From: Marinifilum caeruleilacunae
GTDB lineage: Bacteria > Bacteroidota > Bacteroidia > Bacteroidales > Marinifilaceae
DNA length: 64,000 bases
NCBI RefSeq assembly: GCF_013141825.1
Contig: NZ_RZNH01000015.1
Location: 1-64,000, forward strand
Reading direction: 5' to 3'
The notes beneath the pieces were generated by a model that was given only the letters and a program-made list of their open reading frames with translations, was not told where the DNA came from and did no database searches. Below are positions 15,279-24,498 of the stretch, piece after piece (position 1 is the stretch's first letter; every line of letters begins with the position of its first letter). The position numbers and the translations under genes were made by a program.

Positions 15279-16568
15279 TTAAAATCTTTCTGTCGAATTA
15301 ATGGTTTTATAGCCAATCAGCATATCGTAGTTCAGTGCAATGTCGTGATAATACACAAAAATGATATAGTCGTTTTCTGTTTCCCAATGGTTGCCTTCAA
15401 TGTAACCCGTGTCAGGAATTTTCGATTTGTGATCGACCAAAGCAAACTGGTAATTGTAGTATCCCTGTTTCATGAAAATTTTTGAAACATAGGCTCCTTT
15501 GTCAAAATCGTAGTGCATTTTATTTCTTTGGTTGCATTGCCAGTTGTTAAAATTTCCATGCACATAAAAATCACCATGTTTTAGCTCATTATCCATCGGC
15601 AATGTAAAGGTGATATAGGCATAATCTGCTTCGGTTGCAGGGATATCCCTTTCCTGCACTTCAACAAGGTAGTTTCCGTTAATGTCCTGATCGAAAATGT
15701 ATTGCTTAAAATGGCGGTTATTACCAGGCGAAAGCAAAACCGTTGTAGTATCGTTTACCCGTGTTATTTCCCTGATAAAACGGGTTTGATATCGTAAACT
15801 TTTCAGATCGAAATTGCGAAACTCGTTACCGCCCGGAAAAATATTTTCATCTTCATAATCGAATACCAACTCGTTTTTACGGATAAAAATCGGTTTTAAT
15901 TTTTTCTCAGTCCCATCCAACCTGTTGTTTTGGGTCAACACTACATTTAAATCGAGTTGTGGGTTGTCAATTTTAAAATTCGGATGAAGAATGCTAAAAT
16001 CAATCTCCTGGTGCGATTCTCTTTTTTCGATATTTACAGGATGTTTCACGATTCCTTTAATATCAACTTTCGAATCCAGAATCATAAATCGTTGTCGAAC
16101 AATTACCTTTTCAGGATCAAAATCTTCGTATACTTCAATTACGTAATTGCCCGATAGTTTTAGGCTGATATCATTGTTAGGAATTTTTACACTGTAGTGG
16201 ATATAATTTACATTCGTATTAAAGGAATGTTCGTAATCGCTAATCTGATTTTCCGAAAAACCTTCCAGAAAATCGAACTCACTTAAGCCAGAATTGTACC
16301 AATTTTTATCACAATGTATAATTCTATAGGAGTAATCTTGAATATTTTCTTTAATTTCGTCAAAAGAAAAAAGGAGCTGATTATCTCCTTTTAATTCGAT
16401 AACCGGAGCAGCCAGTTCCCATCCAATGGGAAACATTTGAACAGTATGAATGCTTTTTTTCTTGATTTCATTGCGATATACGAAATCATAATCGGAAGCA
16501 TAGGTGTTGCAAGTTGCTGAAATTAAGGTTAAACACAAGAGAAGTGATATAAGGAAATTTTTACGCAT
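15279..16568 (-). CDS. Type IX secretion system plug protein (former DUF5103)
   Basis: The 429-aa protein has a signal peptide (about 1-24) and then several beta-sandwich domains. Stretches such as VQMFPIGWELAAPVIEL, YRIIHCDKNW, FDFLEGF and IHYSVKIPNND match the DUF5103 family as I recall it. That family was identified structurally as the periplasmic plug that blocks the SprA/Sov translocon barrel when PorV is absent. The C-terminal part holds GDFYVHGNFNNWQ, a carbohydrate-binding-like fold, and GYYNYQFALVD. It is encoded alone here, apart from the PorE/PorP cluster at 33-37 kb, which is normal for T9SS genes. Confidence 0.85.
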   Translation of the reverse strand: MRKNFLISLLLCLTLISATCNTYASDYDFVYRNEIKKKSIHTVQMFPIGWELAAPVIELKGDNQLLFSFDEIKENIQDYSYRIIHCDKNWYNSGLSEFDFLEGFSENQISDYEHSFNTNVNYIHYSVKIPNNDISLKLSGNYVIEVYEDFDPEKVIVRQRFMILDSKVDIKGIVKHPVNIEKRESHQEIDFSILHPNFKIDNPQLDLNVVLTQNNRLDGTEKKLKPIFIRKNELVFDYEDENIFPGGNEFRNFDLKSLRYQTRFIREITRVNDTTTVLLSPGNNRHFKQYIFDQDINGNYLVEVQERDIPATEADYAYITFTLPMDNELKHGDFYVHGNFNNWQCNQRNKMHYDFDKGAYVSKIFMKQGYYNYQFALVDHKSKIPDTGYIEGNHWETENDYIIFVYYHDIALNYDMLIGYKTINSTERF

Positions 16569-16775: not shown

Positions 16776-18131
16776 ATGTCTGAAGTTAAAAAGATCAAAA
16801 AAGGCTTAGATATTAAGCTGATAGGAAAGGCTGAAAAAGTACTTGAAAAAGCTGATCGTTCTGAGACATACGCAATTAAACCTACCGATTTTCCTGGATT
16901 AACACCAAAATTAAAAGTTAAGGTTGATACTGAAGTAAAGGCTGGAAGTCCTTTATTTTTTGATAAGTACAGCCCTGAAATTAATTTTGCTTCTCCGGTA
17001 AGTGGTAAAGTAATTGCCGTAAACAGAGGAGAACGAAGAAAGATTTTAGAAGTAGTTGTTCAAGCCGACGCAGAAATCCAATACGAAGAGTTTAAAAAAG
17101 CTGATCCGAATGGTCTTTCGCGCGAAGAGGTTAAAGAAGAGTTACTTAAAAGTGGTCTTTGGGCCTTTATTCGTCAACGTCCTTACGACGTAATCGCGAA
17201 ACCACAGGATACACCAAAAGCAATCTTTGTTTCTGCATTCGATTCAGCACCTTTGGCTGCCGATGTTGATTTCCTTGTAGAAGGGGAGGCAGAAGCATTC
17301 CAGGCGGGTATTGACGCTCTTGCAAAATTAACCGACGGAAAAGTTCATTTGAACGTGAATCCAAACATGAACCAGGCAAAAGTGTTTTCAGAAGTGAAAA
17401 ATGCGACTGTAAACAAATTTACTGGTATTCACCCTGCGGGTAATGTTGGTGTACAAATTCACCACATCGATCCTATTAATAAGGGAGAAACGGCTTGGGT
17501 TGTTCGTCCACAAGAAGTTATTTTCATTGGTCGATTGTTCCAAAAAGGTGTTTACGATGTAAGTCGTAAAGTAGCACTTTGTGGTTCTGAAGTAAAAACA
17601 CCTTGTTATTTCGAAACCATTACAGGAACTTCAGTTCGAAACATATTAAAAGGTAAACTGAAAGATGACGAAACCATTCGTGTGATTTCAGGAAACGTAC
17701 TTACTGGTTCAAAAATTCCAGAAGATGGTTTTTTAGGCATGTACGATTCACAAATTACAGTAATTCCAGAAGGAGATAAGCATGAATTCTTAGGCTGGGC
17801 ATTGCCAGGTTTAAGTAAATTCTCAATGTCTAAATCCTTTTTCTCTTGGTTAACACCAAACAAAGAGTACCGTTTGGATGCGAACCTACATGGAGAGCAC
17901 CGTGCTTACGTTGTTTCCGGAGAGTATGAGAAAGTTCTTCCTATGGATGTATTGCCTGTTCACCTGATTAAATCAATTTTGGTTGAAGATATCGATCAAA
18001 TGGAACAATTAGGGATTTACGAAGTTGCACCAGAAGATTTCGCACTATGCGAGTTTGTGTGTACTTCTAAAATTGATGTTCAGGATATCGTACGTCAGGG
18101 AATTGATCTGATGATTAAAGAAATGAGCTAA
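16776..18131 (+). CDS. nqrA: Na+-translocating NADH:quinone oxidoreductase subunit A
   Basis: The 451-aa cytoplasmic-side subunit begins with the typical KIKKGLDIKLIGKAE and contains GVQIHHIDPINKGETAW and PCYFETITGTSVRN. NqrA contacts NqrB and lies near the quinone site but binds no cofactor of its own. It opens an uninterrupted six-gene operon, nqrA-F, with gaps of 7-54 bases. The complex couples electron flow from NADH to quinone with outward Na+ pumping. The length is usual for Bacteroidota NqrA. Confidence 0.96.
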   Translation: MSEVKKIKKGLDIKLIGKAEKVLEKADRSETYAIKPTDFPGLTPKLKVKVDTEVKAGSPLFFDKYSPEINFASPVSGKVIAVNRGERRKILEVVVQADAEIQYEEFKKADPNGLSREEVKEELLKSGLWAFIRQRPYDVIAKPQDTPKAIFVSAFDSAPLAADVDFLVEGEAEAFQAGIDALAKLTDGKVHLNVNPNMNQAKVFSEVKNATVNKFTGIHPAGNVGVQIHHIDPINKGETAWVVRPQEVIFIGRLFQKGVYDVSRKVALCGSEVKTPCYFETITGTSVRNILKGKLKDDETIRVISGNVLTGSKIPEDGFLGMYDSQITVIPEGDKHEFLGWALPGLSKFSMSKSFFSWLTPNKEYRLDANLHGEHRAYVVSGEYEKVLPMDVLPVHLIKSILVEDIDQMEQLGIYEVAPEDFALCEFVCTSKIDVQDIVRQGIDLMIKEMS

Positions 18132-18152: not shown

Positions 18153-19337
18153 ATGAAAGCACTTAGAAAATTTCTTGATAAAAAGAAACCTTTATTTGAA
18201 AAAGGGGGCAAGTTTGCAAAGTTGCAGTCTACTTTCGACGCTTTTGAAACTTTCTTGTTTGTTCCTGATCATACCTCCAAAACGGGTACACACATCAAGG
18301 ATGCTATCGATTTGAAGCGTACGATGTCTGTGGTTGTTATGGCCCTTATTCCATCCTTGTTGTTTGGTATGTACAATATAGGATATCAGCATTTTCTATC
18401 GGTAGGCGAAACAGCGGACTTGATGGATATGTTTGTTTATGGTTTAATTAAAGTATTACCAATTGTTGTTGTTTCATACGTAGTTGGTTTGGGAATCGAA
18501 TTTGCCTTTGCGCAAATGAGAGGACATGCTGTAAACGAGGGTTTCCTTGTTTCAGGTATGTTAATTCCTTTGGTGATGCCAGTTGAAGCTCCACTTTGGA
18601 TGGTAGCAGTTTCTACCGCATTTGCAGTAGTTATTGGTAAAGAAGTATTCGGTGGTACCGGAATGAACATTTGGAACCCTGCTTTGGTTGCTCGTGCATT
18701 CTTCTTCTTTGCTTACCCATCTAAAATGTCGGGTGATGCCGTTTGGATTGCAGAAAAAGCAGATAGCTTTTCAGGAGCAACTCCACTAGCTCACGCTGCA
18801 TCTTTAGCAGAGTATAAAGGAGGTTCGGAAGCAGCAACTTCGATTATCGAACAGCATTTGAGTAATTCATGGGATATGTTTGTTGGATTGATCCCGGGAT
18901 CAATTGGGGAAACATCAACTCTTGCAATTTTAATCGGAGCCGTTGTCCTTATTGCAACAGGAATTGGTAGCTGGAGAATTATGCTGTCTGTGTTTGCCGG
19001 AGGACTTGTAATGGGAACCATCTTCAATTTAATTGGAGTGAATGCTTATATGACTGATATTCCTGCATATCAACACTTACTATTAGGTGGATTTGCATTT
19101 GGTGCTGTATTTATGGCAACCGATCCGGTATCAGCTACTCAAACAACACGTGGTAAATACATTTACGGTTTCTTAATCGGATTACTTGCAGTATTAATTC
19201 GCGTTGTGAATGCAGGTTTCCCTGAAGCGATGATGTTGGCAATTCTTTTCATGAATACATTCGCACCGTTGATCGACCACTATGTTGTTCAAGGAAATGT
19301 GAAGAGAAGATTGAAACGAGTTAAGGTGAAAGCTTAA
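18153..19337 (+). CDS. nqrB: Na+-NQR subunit B (covalent FMN and riboflavin carrier)
   Basis: The 394-aa polytopic membrane subunit has about ten helices. FSGATPLAHAA carries the threonine to which ApbE attaches FMN by a phosphoester bond (the SGATP motif). The glycine-rich NIWNPALVARAFFFF and FMATDPVSATQTTRGK segments are family signatures; the latter is shared with RnfD. NqrB forms the central part of the Na+ channel and the quinone site. The gene follows nqrA by 21 bases. Confidence 0.96.
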   Translation: MKALRKFLDKKKPLFEKGGKFAKLQSTFDAFETFLFVPDHTSKTGTHIKDAIDLKRTMSVVVMALIPSLLFGMYNIGYQHFLSVGETADLMDMFVYGLIKVLPIVVVSYVVGLGIEFAFAQMRGHAVNEGFLVSGMLIPLVMPVEAPLWMVAVSTAFAVVIGKEVFGGTGMNIWNPALVARAFFFFAYPSKMSGDAVWIAEKADSFSGATPLAHAASLAEYKGGSEAATSIIEQHLSNSWDMFVGLIPGSIGETSTLAILIGAVVLIATGIGSWRIMLSVFAGGLVMGTIFNLIGVNAYMTDIPAYQHLLLGGFAFGAVFMATDPVSATQTTRGKYIYGFLIGLLAVLIRVVNAGFPEAMMLAILFMNTFAPLIDHYVVQGNVKRRLKRVKVKA

Positions 19338-19357: not shown

Positions 19358-20062
19358 ATGAATACGAATAGTAATACATATACTTTCCTTTATGCTTCTG
19401 TAATGGTGCTAATTGTAGCTGCAGTTCTTTCATTTACTGCTTTACAATTAAAACCTCGTCAGAACAAGAACAGGGAAATTGAGAAAAAGCAAGACATCCT
19501 AAATGCTGTGGGTGTTTCTTCTACTCCTGCCGATGCTGAAAAGTTGTATGATCAGTATATCGTGAAAGCTTTTACTGTTAGCTCGGAAGGAACTGTTAAA
19601 TCGGAAGATAAAGATGCAACCTTTAAGGTTGATTTGAAAAGAGAGGCTAAAAAAGATCTTGAAGAAAGAGATTTGCCTGTTTTTGTTTTCAACAAAGAAG
19701 GTGTTGGCGAGAAAATGATTTTGCCGGTAAGAGGTAAAGGAATGTGGGGACCACTTTGGGGATACATCGCAATGGAAAAAGATGGGAATACCATTTTTGG
19801 GGCAACTTTTGCTCATCAAGGCGAAACACCTGGTTTGGGGGCCGAAATTTCTACTCCTGCTTTTCAGGATCAATTCATCGGAAAGCAAATTTTCAATGAA
19901 GCTGGAAAATTTACCTCTATTATCATGGTAAAAGGTACAGCTAGTGGAAATCTTCACCAGTTCGATGCAGTATCGGGTGGTACTGTTACGTCTAAAGGTT
20001 TTGAAGCAATGCTTCTTGATAACCTTAGCAGTTATGAAAAGTTTTTAAAATCTTCAAAATAA
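19358..20062 (+). CDS. nqrC: Na+-NQR subunit C (covalent FMN carrier)
   Basis: The 234-aa subunit has one N-terminal membrane helix (about 8-28) and a periplasmic FMN-binding domain. GETPGLGAEI and the FMN-accepting threonine in DAVSGGTVTSKG are visible; the SGxTxTS motif is the ApbE target. It shuttles electrons from the membrane Fe centre to NqrB-FMN in current models. The gene follows nqrB by 20 bases and precedes nqrD by 7 bases. Confidence 0.96.
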   Translation: MNTNSNTYTFLYASVMVLIVAAVLSFTALQLKPRQNKNREIEKKQDILNAVGVSSTPADAEKLYDQYIVKAFTVSSEGTVKSEDKDATFKVDLKREAKKDLEERDLPVFVFNKEGVGEKMILPVRGKGMWGPLWGYIAMEKDGNTIFGATFAHQGETPGLGAEISTPAFQDQFIGKQIFNEAGKFTSIIMVKGTASGNLHQFDAVSGGTVTSKGFEAMLLDNLSSYEKFLKSSK

Positions 20063-20069
20063 GCACGAG

Positions 20070-20714
20070 ATGAGCGATAAAGAACCATTATTCTCAGCTA
20101 AGAATCGAAAATTGCTTACCAATCCTTTGGGAAGCGATAACCCGATTACCGTTCAGGTATTGGGGATCTGTTCGGCCTTGGCAGTAACTGCTAAGTTGGA
20201 ACCTGCAGTGGTTTTAACAATTTCGGTTACAGCAGTATTGGCCCTTGCTAATGTAATTATATCATTATTAAGACATACAATTCCTTCAAGAATTCGAATC
20301 ATTGTACAGTTGGTTGTAATTGCCGCATTGGTAATTCTTGTAGACCAGGTATTGAAAGCATTTGCTTACGATGTAAGTAAACAGCTATCGGTATTTGTAG
20401 GTTTGATTATTACAAACTGTATTATCATGGGACGTTTAGAGGCTTTTGCACTTGGTAACAGACCTTGGCCAGCATTCCTTGATGGTATTGGTAATGCAGC
20501 CGGATACGGTATCATCCTTGTAATTGTAGCTTTCTTCCGTGAATTGTTAGGATCGGGAACACTTTATGGTTTCCAGGTAATTCCTCAGGCAGTTTACGAT
20601 ATGGGTTACGAGAACAACGGATTAATGATTCTACCTCCAATGGCTTTGGTTGTAGTAGGAATCATTATTTGGGTACAAAGATCTAAGGATAAATCCTTAA
20701 TTGAGTCGAACTAA
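20070..20714 (+). CDS. nqrD: Na+-NQR subunit D
   Basis: The 214-aa membrane protein has six helices in the inverted-repeat fold shared by NqrD/NqrE and RnfA/RnfE. Two cysteines lie in half-membrane helices: one in LGICSALAV and one in [15 protein letters not shown]. With the equivalent pair in NqrE they hold the intramembrane iron centre. The extra N-terminal stretch ([17 protein letters not shown]) is normal. That iron site is the one thought to require the maturation factor NqrM, for which a candidate is encoded at 23920-24087. Confidence 0.96.
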
Positions 20715-20733: not shown

Positions 20734-21351
20734 ATGGAAAATCTGATTAATATATTTGTCAAGTCGATCTTTATCGACAACATGGTATTCGCATATTTCT
20801 TTGGAATGTGTTCGTACCTTGCGGTTTCGAAAACCGTTAAAACTTCTATGGGTCTTGGTTTGGCAGTAATCTTCGTATTGGGAATTACAGTTCCTGCGAA
20901 CTACATGCTAAACAAATACATATTGGCAGAAGGAGCACTAGTTTGGCTAGATCCTTCGATGGCAGATGTTGATTTAAGCTTCTTAAGCTTTATCATGTTT
21001 ATTGCCGTAATTGCTTCTATGGTACAATTGGTGGAAATGATTGTTGAAAAATTTGCACCAACACTATATTCATCACTAGGTATTTTCTTACCATTGATTG
21101 CTGTAAACTGTGCAATTTTAGGTGGATCGTTATTTATGCAGGAAAGAGGTTACACTTCTTTAGCAGAAGCTACCTCGTTCGGTTTAGGATCCGGTATTGG
21201 ATGGTTACTTGCCATTGTAGGTATTGCAGCAATTCGTGAGAAAATCCGCTACTCAAATGTACCTGCTCCATTAAGAGGATTAGGGATTACATTTATTGTA
21301 ACAGGATTAATGGGAATTGCTTTTATGAGCTTCATGGGTATCAAACTCTAA
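20734..21351 (+). CDS. nqrE: Na+-NQR subunit E
   Basis: The 205-aa protein with six helices is the partner of NqrD. The iron-ligand cysteines appear in [11 protein letters not shown] and [14 protein letters not shown] start it at ATG 20734 ([15 protein letters not shown]), which matches family N-termini. An upstream in-frame TTG at 20701 would add 11 residues and overlap nqrD, and is unlikely. The gene is 19 bases behind nqrD and 54 bases before nqrF. Confidence 0.96.
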
Positions 21352-21405: not shown

Positions 21406-22665
21406 ATGATATTATTAACAACACAGGGAACAGTGATTGCCACAAGTATTGTGATTTTCTTACTTGTGATACTGGTACTGGTTTCTATCCTATTGTACGC
21501 AAAGAAGAAACTTACTCCTTCAGGAGAGGTTACAATTGATATTAATGAGGGAGACCTAAAATTGGTTGTTGAACCAGGGAATACTCTTTTGGGTACCTTA
21601 GGAGATGAAAAAATCTTCTTGCCATCGGCTTGTGGTGGAGGTGGTACTTGTGCAATGTGTAAGTGTCAGGTACACGATGGAGCTGGATCAATTTTACCAA
21701 CCGAAACAGGATATTTTACTCGTAAAGAAGCTCAAAACGATTGGCGTTTGGCTTGCCAGGTAAAAGTAAAAGAGGATATGACAATGTCAATTCCTCAGGA
21801 AATTATGGGAATTAAGAAATGGGAGTGTGAAGTGGTTTCGAACCACAACGTTGCAACTTTCATTAAAGAATTCGTTGTAAAACTTCCTGATGGAGAAATT
21901 CTTGACTTTAAATCAGGTGGATACATTCAGATTGATGTACCTAAGATTAATGTTGATTTCAAGGATATGGACATTGAAGAAGAGTACAGAGGTGATTGGG
22001 ATCAATTTAAGATGTTCGATCTTACCATGAAAAACCCAGAGCCAACTTATCGTGCTTACTCAATGGCTAACCACCCTGCAGAGGGTAACATCGTGATGTT
22101 GAACATCCGTATTGCTACGCCACCATGGGATAGAGTAAACAACAGCTGGATGAATGTAAATCCAGGTATCTGTTCTTCTTTCATCTTCTCGCGTAAGCCA
22201 GGTGATAAGGTTACTGTATCGGGGCCTTATGGTGAGTTCTTCATCAAAGAAACAAACAACGAAATGATGTTTATTGGTGGTGGTGCCGGTATGGCTCCAA
22301 TGCGTTCACACATCTTCCACTTGTTCCACACAGTGAAAACAGGTCGTAAGGCTACTTTCTGGTATGGAGCTCGTTCGTTAAAAGAGGTGTTCTACGCAGA
22401 TCAGTTCGACGCTATCGCTGCTGATTTCCCGAACTTCGAATGGCACTTGGCACTTTCTGAGCCACTTCCAGAAGATAAGTGGGAAGGACCAACAGGATTT
22501 ATTCACCAGGTAATTTACGATAACTACCTAAGCAAACACGAAGAGCCGGAAGATATCGAATACTACTTGTGTGGACCTCCAATGATGAACTCAGCTGTTA
22601 CAAACATGCTGTATGAATTAGGAGTACCAGACGAAATGGTTGAATTTGACGATTTCGGATCGTAA
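21406..22665 (+). CDS. nqrF: Na+-NQR subunit F (NADH dehydrogenase, FAD and 2Fe-2S)
   Basis: The 419-aa protein has one N-terminal membrane helix (about 9-28) and a plant-type ferredoxin domain with 2Fe-2S ligands in SACGGGGTCAMCKCQV and LACQVKV. An FAD-binding domain with YRAYSMANHP follows, then an NADH-binding domain with MFIGGGAGMAPMRSH and YYLCGPPMM. It takes hydride from NADH and passes electrons to the membrane subunits. The acidic EFDDFGS ending is typical. A terminator follows directly. Confidence 0.97.
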   Translation: MILLTTQGTVIATSIVIFLLVILVLVSILLYAKKKLTPSGEVTIDINEGDLKLVVEPGNTLLGTLGDEKIFLPSACGGGGTCAMCKCQVHDGAGSILPTETGYFTRKEAQNDWRLACQVKVKEDMTMSIPQEIMGIKKWECEVVSNHNVATFIKEFVVKLPDGEILDFKSGGYIQIDVPKINVDFKDMDIEEEYRGDWDQFKMFDLTMKNPEPTYRAYSMANHPAEGNIVMLNIRIATPPWDRVNNSWMNVNPGICSSFIFSRKPGDKVTVSGPYGEFFIKETNNEMMFIGGGAGMAPMRSHIFHLFHTVKTGRKATFWYGARSLKEVFYADQFDAIAADFPNFEWHLALSEPLPEDKWEGPTGFIHQVIYDNYLSKHEEPEDIEYYLCGPPMMNSAVTNMLYELGVPDEMVEFDDFGS

Positions 22666-22671
22666 CAATAT

Positions 22672-22708
22672 AAAACAAGCCTCGATTTTTCGGGGCTTGT
22701 TTGTTTTA
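22672..22708 (+). terminator. Terminator after nqrF
   Basis: ACAAGCC pairs with GGCTTGT around a CG-closed loop and is followed by TTGTTTT. It separates nqrA-F from apbE, although read-through to apbE is possible. Confidence 0.75.
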
Positions 22709-22791
22709 TAGAGTCTGTGTAATTTCGTGAATCAGTAATATTAACAATGAGGATGAAATACTTGCCTCCTCTTAATTCGTAATTGTATATC

Positions 22792-23796
22792 ATGTATAAG
22801 TATAAATATATCTTTTTGCTCCTAATTGGCTTCGCCCTTGTATCCTGTAAAAAGGAAGCAACATATCATTTCAAGGAAGGGAAGGTTTTTGGAACTTTCT
22901 ATCATTTTGTATATGAATATCCTGAAGGTGAAGACTTGCAGGTTGAAATTATGCAAAAGCTGAAAGAATTTGATTTCTCTTTATCAACCTACAATCCTGA
23001 ATCGGTGATTTCGAAGGTGAATGATAATGATTCATCGGTTGTATTGGATGATTATTTTATCACCTGTTTTAAGACCAGTGAACAAATAGCACAAATTACC
23101 GATGGAGCGTTCGATTGGACAGTAGCACCACTTGCAAATGCATGGGGATTTGGATTTAAAAACAAGCTCGAACCAGAGGATATCCCGGTAGATAGTCTAC
23201 TAATGGTAGTTGGATATCAGAAAGTGAAATTACAGGGCGGAAAAGTGATAAAAGAGGATCCGAGAATCATGTTTGATGCCAGTGCCATTGCAAAAGGTTA
23301 TGGAGTGGATATTGTAGCTGATTACCTGGAGTCGAAGGGAATTGTCAATTATATGGTTGAAATTGGCGGAGAAATCAGGGCAAAAGGCAATAGCAATAAG
23401 AATCGTCCGTGGAGAGTTGGAATCGATCAGCCAATAGATGATCCTTCAAGTTTGTCGCGACAAATTCAGGACGTAATGGAATTGGAAAATGGCGCATTGG
23501 CTACCTCTGGCAATTACCGTCAGTTCTATATTAAGGATGGTAAAAAATATGCACATACCATCGATCCCCGATTGGGATATCCCGTGCAACACAGCCTACT
23601 TTCGGCTTCGGTAGTAGCTCCAACTTGTATGAAAGCCGATGCATATGCAACCGCCTTTATGGTTTTAGGACTTGAAAAAAGTATCGAAATTGTGAAAAAT
23701 GATCCGGAATTGGAAGCCTATTTCATCTACACCGATGAGGAAGGTGCTCTGGCAACATATATCAGTGAAAAATTGAATGCCAAAATCCTGAAGTAG
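22792..23796 (+). CDS. apbE: FAD:protein FMN transferase (flavinyl transferase, lipoprotein)
   Basis: The 334-aa enzyme attaches FMN to the threonines of NqrB and NqrC using FAD and Mg2+. It has a lipoprotein signal ending FALVSC and the family blocks STYNPESVISKVN, FDASAIAKGYGVD, GGEIRAKG and KKYAHTIDPRLGYP, followed by the metal-binding CMKADAYATAFMVLG. The start is set at ATG 22792, which gives the signal peptide MYKYKYIFLLLIG. A TTG three codons earlier is less likely. Its position directly after nqrF fits its role in maturing the complex. Confidence 0.95.
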   Translation: MYKYKYIFLLLIGFALVSCKKEATYHFKEGKVFGTFYHFVYEYPEGEDLQVEIMQKLKEFDFSLSTYNPESVISKVNDNDSSVVLDDYFITCFKTSEQIAQITDGAFDWTVAPLANAWGFGFKNKLEPEDIPVDSLLMVVGYQKVKLQGGKVIKEDPRIMFDASAIAKGYGVDIVADYLESKGIVNYMVEIGGEIRAKGNSNKNRPWRVGIDQPIDDPSSLSRQIQDVMELENGALATSGNYRQFYIKDGKKYAHTIDPRLGYPVQHSLLSASVVAPTCMKADAYATAFMVLGLEKSIEIVKNDPELEAYFIYTDEEGALATYISEKLNAKILK

Positions 23797-23833: not shown

Positions 23834-23916
23834 GTTATCGGTTTTTCGATTTAAAAAAGTTTGAATGGTAGTTGTTATGAAATAATACAAACCGAGTAAA
23901 ACGGAAAACCGATAAC
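23834..23916. repeat. Inverted repeat between apbE and the small Cys-rich gene
   Basis: GTTATCGGTTTTTCG (23834-23848) is matched in reverse by CGGAAAACCGATAAC (23902-23916), 14 of 15 positions paired, with 53 bases between. It lies between two convergent genes. It could act as a weak transcription end, an mRNA 3' stabiliser or a remnant of a small repeat element. Confidence 0.6.
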
Positions 23917-23919
23917 CAA

Positions 23920-24087
23920 TTATTTAGTGTCGCACGACTCTACTTCATCTTCATTACATGCACAGATATTGCATCCTCCACCTGTAAAGCTGGCATTTTT
24001 ATCAACGAAAAGTTTGATGGCAAAGCCAAGAAATGCCAGAATAAGTAAAAAAACTGCAAGTAGTAATATTTTAAAAAATACTGCCAT
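23920..24087 (-). CDS. 55-aa membrane protein with four-Cys tail, NqrM-like candidate
   Basis: An ATG at 24087, preceded by a good AAGGAG site, opens a 55-codon frame. The product has one membrane helix (about 5-27, KILLLAVFLLILAFLGFAIK) and a short tail with four cysteines at 39, 42, 44 and 52 (GGGCNICACNEDEVESCDTK). The NqrM (former DUF539) maturation factor of Na+-NQR has the same plan: one helix, then a GxC...CxC...C tail, encoded behind apbE in gammaproteobacteria. Here the gene lies directly behind apbE but on the other strand. I infer it helps insert the NqrD/NqrE iron; sequence identity to NqrM is not established. Confidence 0.6.
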   Translation of the reverse strand: MAVFFKILLLAVFLLILAFLGFAIKLFVDKNASFTGGGCNICACNEDEVESCDTK

Positions 24088-24194: not shown

Positions 24195-24440
24195 TTACAA
24201 ACTTTCCAATTCTTTATCGAGAAGAGTCAATTTTTTATGAAGCTTGGCATTTTTGGCTTTTTCCTGCTCCATTTTGTGTTGAGAAGTAGCGCAACTAATC
24301 CCTCTTTTCTTCAACTCTTCATTTCTACCTATATGCAACTCAGGGAATCTACCATTCTTCTTTATCAGGATAGAAATGGCAAATCCAACAAAACCAATTG
24401 CCAGAATAACAGCAGTTATAAGGATAACTTTTACAATCAT
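24195..24440 (-). CDS. 81-aa single-helix membrane protein, possible partner of the NqrM-like protein
   Basis: The 81-aa product has an N-terminal helix (about 3-26, ending GFAISILIKKNG), then a polar region with FPELHIGRNEELKKRGISC and a charged, coiled-coil-like tail (55-80). Its helix-plus-loop (LGFAIKLFVDKN against VGFAISILIKKN) resembles the 55-aa protein next to it, which suggests a common origin, but it has only one cysteine. I recall similar short membrane proteins in other Bacteroidota, with no known role. A well-spaced promoter lies just upstream, and the 55-aa gene follows 107 bases later on the same strand. Confidence 0.6.
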   Translation of the reverse strand: MIVKVILITAVILAIGFVGFAISILIKKNGRFPELHIGRNEELKKRGISCATSQHKMEQEKAKNAKLHKKLTLLDKELESL

Positions 24441-24466: not shown

Positions 24467-24498
24467 CAAATATATCATTTCAGGATTGTACAGCCAAA
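24467..24498 (-). promoter_or_regulatory. Promoter of the 81-aa membrane protein gene
   Basis: On the minus strand TTTG (24498-24495) and TATATTTG (24474-24467) are separated by 20 bases, which is a full match to the Bacteroidota -33/-7 promoter with the expected spacing. The -7 box ends 26 bases before the start codon. Confidence 0.6.

Follow-up and report, generated by a model that had tools for sequence, protein, structure and literature searches.

In many gut and marine Bacteroidota, respiration begins at NQR, whose [2Fe-2S] centre, situated between NqrD and NqrE, is considered to depend on NqrM. One cysteine of this protein, Cys33 of V. harveyi NqrM, is reportedly indispensable. In two publications, NqrM is regarded as supplying the iron for the [2Fe-2S] cluster that NqrD/NqrE contain within the membrane (PMC12174285, PMC6209661). 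In proteobacteria, nqrM is also found downstream of apbE; no description of NqrM in Bacteroidota was found in the literature searched.

The stretch of DNA analysed here (the window) comprises 64,000 nucleotides of Marinifilum caeruleilacunae (contig NZ_RZNH01000015.1, positions 1 to 64,000). A preliminary description of it had proposed a 55-aa frame beside apbE, here called S55, as a candidate NqrM of Bacteroidota. This idea is partly supported, being right in direction and wrong in scope: S55 is a branch, restricted to one lineage, of a far larger family linked to nqr, and this family is the more important find.

The nqr region and the gene S55

The region contains the following features:

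16776..18131, plus strand: nqrA (NCBIfam model over curated cut-off)
18153..19337, plus strand: nqrB (NCBIfam model over curated cut-off)
19358..20062, plus strand: nqrC (NCBIfam model over curated cut-off)
20070..20714, plus strand: nqrD, proposed client (NCBIfam model over curated cut-off; Cys34, Cys117)
20734..21351, plus strand: nqrE, proposed client (NCBIfam model over curated cut-off; Cys26, Cys126)
21406..22665, plus strand: nqrF (NCBIfam model over curated cut-off)
22673..22702, plus strand: terminator-like hairpin in the gap between nqrF and apbE
22783..23796, plus strand: apbE, flavin transferase (PF02424, E 6.8e-85), convergent with S55
23834..23916, no strand: 15-bp inverted repeat (arms 23834-23848 and 23902-23916) in the gap where apbE and S55 converge
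23920..24087, minus strand: S55, proposed NqrM-like factor, a 55-aa four-cysteine one-helix protein
24195..24440, minus strand: S81, type II one-helix homologue of 81 aa that keeps Cys50 only
24469..24497, minus strand: promoter-like site TTGGCT-17-TATATT upstream of S81, such matches being no more frequent than in shuffled sequences

All six nqr subunits and apbE are thus present, as had been stated, the former over curated NCBIfam cut-offs and ApbE by Pfam. The NqrD and NqrE of the window retain their four cysteines (two each), which we take to be the likely cluster ligands. S55 does adjoin apbE, but the two genes are convergent, so that it is not the next gene in the same direction of transcription. 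S81, which the preliminary description had passed over, adjoins S55 upstream on the same strand and is found beside it in all 12 genomes with S55. The order apbE> <S55 <S81 of the window recurs unchanged in the 10 other S55 genomes with a retrieved nqr region, and in the twelfth (G005) S55 and S81 are situated on a different contig from nqrA. The folding of the inverted repeat beats all 200 shuffles on either strand. The window's own genome carries both nqr and rnf. Divergent from nqrA lies an ORF of 429 aa (15279-16568, minus strand), and Parabacteroides has a DUF5103 gene at the equivalent place.

S55 starts with ATG and possesses, as had been described, one helix and cysteines at 39, 42, 44 and 52, the hydrophobic stretch preceding the Cys tail. 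AlphaFold2 predicts a single helix of residues 2-32 and a tail of low confidence (pLDDT <50), the mean pLDDT of the model being 67. The tail reads C-x2-C-x-C-x7-C (Cys spacing 3, 2, 8) and exhibits the motif GGGC, GGSC or GNSC. Homologues exist in 12 of the 58 genomes searched, all 12 within the bacterial family of the window (34 genomes) and none outside it; the named loci with a gene of this type belong to Marinifilum, to Labilibaculum, and to a Marinifilaceae MAG. Since the ORF has these homologues, since all four cysteines are invariant in 13/13 aligned sequences, and since the median dN/dS is 0.097 (31 of 78 pairs, those with finite dS), it is a real gene, beyond chance. With S55 in 12 of 58 relatives and nqr in 53 of them, it is not the general NqrM of Bacteroidota.

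Concerning classical NqrM (PF04400), the window's genome yielded no match at E <= 10, in line with the preliminary description. The same profile exceeded its cut-off in 0/247 Bacteroidota genomes, 84 of which have a weak sub-threshold match at E <= 1, whereas nqrA (PF05896) is present in 50 of the 247; as a positive control, the same search found NqrM over cut-off in 5/5 annotated proteobacterial plasmid records. The Bacteroidota are without a recognisable NqrM, and the supposed maturation gap is real. Scanned against Pfam and NCBIfam, S55 had no match at E <= 10, NqrM included, and when S81 and nine homologues were scanned too, all matches stayed sub-threshold; the FeoB-associated model PF12669 did not match S55, its best score for a homologue being 14.0 bits (E 0.064) with a cut-off of 27. 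In a Marinibacterium plasmid, an apbE neighbour annotated as hypothetical (L178, 8478-8711, minus strand) is an unannotated classical NqrM.

A family of one-helix cysteine proteins

Three types of protein are distinguished here, two of which (type I and the CCGGG type) emerged when nqr regions were screened for short ORFs encoding a helix followed by a Cys tail. Type I (alignment A2), found in other parts of the phylum, follows the pattern helix-(K)-x-G-x-F-x-G-[TS]-C-A-x-N-x-P-x-L-...-G-x-x-C-x-x-C-G-...-C, with a Cys spacing of 14, 3, 7-11 in 50/50 sequences; it comprises at least 7959 proteins, whose current annotation is 'hypothetical' or else 'membrane or secreted protein'. Type II (alignment A5) is the homologue in most Bacteroidales, and among 27 sequences F-P and one Cys are invariant; the first Cys has disappeared from most of the Bacteroidales proteins of this type. 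S81 belongs to this type, and compared to the four-cysteine type its first, third, and fourth Cys are gone, one being retained. The widely distributed family member in the order of the window is of S81's type, minus three of the four cysteines. In some Bacteroidales type II proteins (L113, L239, L240, L241, L243, L245, L246, L249), a further Cys motif, for example C-x-x-C or CGIGCSC, is present at the C-terminus, as though an arm like S55 had been appended. The third type (alignment A6), situated behind apbE in bacterial family f41 (loci L131, L134, L135, L138, L142, L259, L260, L261), consists of a helix followed by CCGGG-x-C, often with a His-rich stretch.

S55 and S81 are both members of this phylum-wide unannotated family. 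A profile of eight four-cysteine proteins from other Bacteroidota matches both of them (E 1.5e-4 for S55 and 4.4e-7 for S81). Using hhalign, S55 is aligned with type I at a probability of 96.8, none of 60 tail shuffles being as good, and with type II at 97.3; the two types are aligned with each other at 98.4, again with 0/60 tail shuffles as good. Concerning the branching order, the S55 profile scores type I and type II alike. S55 shares with type I the helix and the K-x-G-x-F-x-G stretch, but is without the 10 residues that link Cys 1 to Cys 2 there. In two genomes (G038 and G053) the sole family member found is a four-cysteine C-x-C form, with spacings of 13, 2, 8 and 15, 2, 10, which stands between type I and S55.

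Co-occurrence with nqr and position behind apbE

Among the 247 Bacteroidota genomes, the A2 profile at E <= 1e-3 matches 42 of the 50 nqrA-positive and 0 of the 197 nqrA-negative genomes (Fisher p 1e-39); at E <= 0.01, two nqrA-negative genomes, G236 and G265, are added, both scoring marginally. The eight nqrA-positive genomes without an A2 match all belong to f41, and all possess the CCGGG type behind apbE. The respective profile A6, searched in 26 genomes only (including G036 and G046, see below), was found in 8/8 nqrA-positive f41 genomes, in 0/8 nqrA-negative ones of the same family, and in 0/8 other nqrA-negative genomes. A5 matches 37 nqrA-positive genomes of the 247 and, weakly, the nqrA-negative G176 (2.5e-4) and G302 (0.005). 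The association is also seen within genera: in g47, both genes occur in G141 and G211, and neither, judged at the A2 threshold, in seven others listed; in g104, nqrA and A2 are both present in G216 and both absent from G118 and G146; in g119, G165 has both, and G176 and G260 are without nqrA and without A2; in g94, G181 has nqrA and A6, and G088 neither.

RNF does not substitute for nqr in this co-occurrence. Of the 35 genomes in which rnfC exceeds its cut-off, 20 lack nqrA, and none of these 20 has an A2 match (rnfC with A2, p 0.33); A6 was tested in 11 of the 20.

For the 58 relatives, PF05896 indicates 54 nqrA genes, a count corrected to 53, since the weak match of G043 is RnfC-like and situated in an RNF locus. 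A match of A2 or A5 exists in 51 of the 53 nqr-positive genomes, and the four nqrA-negative relatives G034, G039, G045, and G052 have no family match. The following exceptions count against the link: G036 (L290), with a complete nqrA-F, and G046 (L291-L293; 79% complete) have no family match by A2, A5, or A6, and in the nqr region of G036 no convincing small Cys protein was found; in G043 (L296, L310; 91% complete), a type II protein (2.6e-25) is accompanied by RNF only, nqr not being detected; and there are the weak matches in nqrA-negative genomes mentioned above.

For the position of the gene, 80 nqr regions from as many of the 102 other nqrA-positive genomes were studied, nqrA being the sole criterion of choice. 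apbE is found in 37 of these regions, and in 26 of the 37 a family gene follows within 600 bp downstream (21 convergent, 5 in the same direction). If four further regions, picked for holding a family gene or for belonging to f41, are included, a family gene lies no more than 600 bp from apbE in 30 of 41 apbE regions, downstream in every case (22 convergent, 8 in the same direction), and the genomes of the remaining 11 have a family member elsewhere. A survey of gene neighbourhoods, as suggested in the preliminary description, thus favours the family, and it places S55 by nqr and apbE in the 11 of its 12 genomes with a readable region; S55 itself, however, is rare.

Hitch-hiking does not account for the link to nqr, since in flavobacterium-like genomes the family gene lies far from nqr, among differing neighbours. 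No neighbour recurred throughout the 10 proteins compared by eye; genes that are presumably MazG-like and RlmB-like appeared twice or so. In one genome (G070, L308), the family gene adjoins a protein that by eye resembles a metal-dependent regulator of the DtxR/MntR type.

Proposed role and comparison with NqrM

The profiles of 22 NqrM and 50 type I sequences are aligned at a probability of 95.8 (score 45.3) over 53 columns, which comprise the helix, the first Cys, and the Cys pair. If the NqrM tail columns are shuffled, the score against type I averages 35.6 (sd 2.2), and 1/300 shuffles is as good as the real tail; with six NqrM sequences 4/60 shuffles equalled it, and with the tails alone the similarity is weak (16/300). 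The direct comparison of NqrM with S55 is likewise weak (probability 45; 3/60 tail shuffles as good), such that the HMM-HMM comparison envisaged in the preliminary description speaks for type I more than for S55. For NqrM against type II 5/60 shuffles, and against the CCGGG type 13/60, are as good, and a kinship of the latter with NqrM finds no support beyond the shared plan. Given these comparisons and their shuffles, the chain from S55 through type I to NqrM is supported at each link, and the direct step from S55 to NqrM weakly. A tblastn search of a type I protein against plasmids gave no match. A ranking of 7349 ORFs by the NqrM profile, whose top 38 all belong to the family, was dropped as proof: NqrM profiles with shuffled tails equalled or beat it in 3/60 cases and placed 20 of 20 in 15/60, such that helix and Cys content explain much of this ranking.

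We consider it rather probable that the family of S55 and S81 is an NqrM-like factor for the iron-sulphur centre of NqrD/NqrE, which is here split over two tandem genes. The candidacy gains from the co-occurrence of the family with nqr and from its likeness to NqrM in plan and profile, and loses from the weak direct match of S55; S55 probably acts in the manner of NqrM. A point against is that the first Cys, said to be essential in V. harveyi NqrM, is gone in most Bacteroidales type II proteins. As to topology, metal binding, client, and division of labour, we infer the following: the single helix would anchor the protein beside the assembling NqrD/NqrE pair, and the Cys tail, to whose cytoplasmic location the higher number of K after the helix than before it gives a weak hint, would bind Fe or an Fe-S unit and pass it to the four membrane cysteines of the pair, ApbE meanwhile attaching FMN to NqrB and NqrC. 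S81, with the linker of the family and one Cys left, may retain the docking part, and the compact tail of S55 may supply the metal-binding cysteines.

It is unlikely, in our opinion, that S81 as type II protein alone is the maturation factor of NQR and that S55 is a tandem duplicate with another metal or redox role. Type II is indeed counted in 51 of the 53 nqr-positive relatives and S55 in 12, always beside S81 (12/12), and G021 and G031 possess S81 behind apbE without S55; however, the four cysteines of S55 are invariant and its dN/dS is low, whereas type II keeps one Cys. Moreover, the four-cysteine form can stand alone, since it is the sole family member found in G038 and G053, adjoining apbE in the latter. 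Improbable to a further degree is a small accessory subunit of the assembled NQR, serving stability or ion handling instead of assembly. Co-occurrence with nqr would be expected equally of a subunit and of a maturase, but type I and S55 retain the Cys tail, and the gene is usually found behind apbE, which itself serves maturation, or unlinked, and not within nqrA-F.

We regard a partnership with ApbE in flavinylation, without a role in iron delivery, as very improbable: the gene does lie directly behind apbE in 26/37 regions, but a Cys tail is not expected for such a role, and none of the 20 rnf-only genomes has an A2 match, though RNF, according to one publication, is likewise flavinylated by ApbE (PMC12174285). 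There is hardly any probability that the family belongs with the FeoB-associated membrane peptides (PF12669), with a general role in iron or metal, and is situated near nqr by chance: weak matches to that model (best E 0.064, for a homologue, below cut-off) speak for such a kinship, but the distribution of the family tracks nqr phylum-wide and also within genera.

If the NqrM-like reading of S55 and S81 holds, the family is a candidate for the missing maturase of the phylum and provides a name for thousands of 'hypothetical' proteins. It would also allow a direct test of which cysteines the task of NqrM needs, since nature has removed them one group at a time. Furthermore, it bears on the origin of NqrM, because in published trees NQR originates in Chlorobi/Bacteroidetes (PMC4014512). 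With slightly more doubt than conviction, we suggest that the Bacteroidota own an NqrM family that goes about one-to-one with nqr, that proteobacterial NqrM is a later branch of it, that the Bacteroidales dropped most of the cysteines, and that the Marinifilaceae have a two-protein version, in which S55 is a four-Cys arm apart from its one-Cys partner.

The organization of S55 is most similar to that of proteobacterial NqrM (PF04400), which equally possesses one N-terminal helix, a four-cysteine tail, and a gene following apbE by nqr. Despite this general similarity, there are differences between them: NqrM exhibits C-x11-C-x(1-2)-C-...-C and GSCGG, both unlike S55, and S55 has no Pfam match, is convergent with apbE, and is paired with a one-Cys homologue. 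The spacing of type I comes closer to that of the NqrM sequences compared (12, 2-3, 4-16), and the order of the cysteines and the distance of the first Cys from the start are the same in NqrM and type I. The FeoB-associated Cys-rich membrane protein (PF12669) is likewise small, with one helix and a Cys tail, but the family described here matches it below threshold only and goes with nqr. S55 agrees with NqrM in the helix, in the four cysteines, and in the place by apbE and nqr, but since it has no match to the profile and differs in GSCGG and spacing, it is not filed under PF04400. In the NqrM-like family of Bacteroidota as defined here, it is included both by its profile match and by the co-occurrence of the family with nqr and not with rnf.
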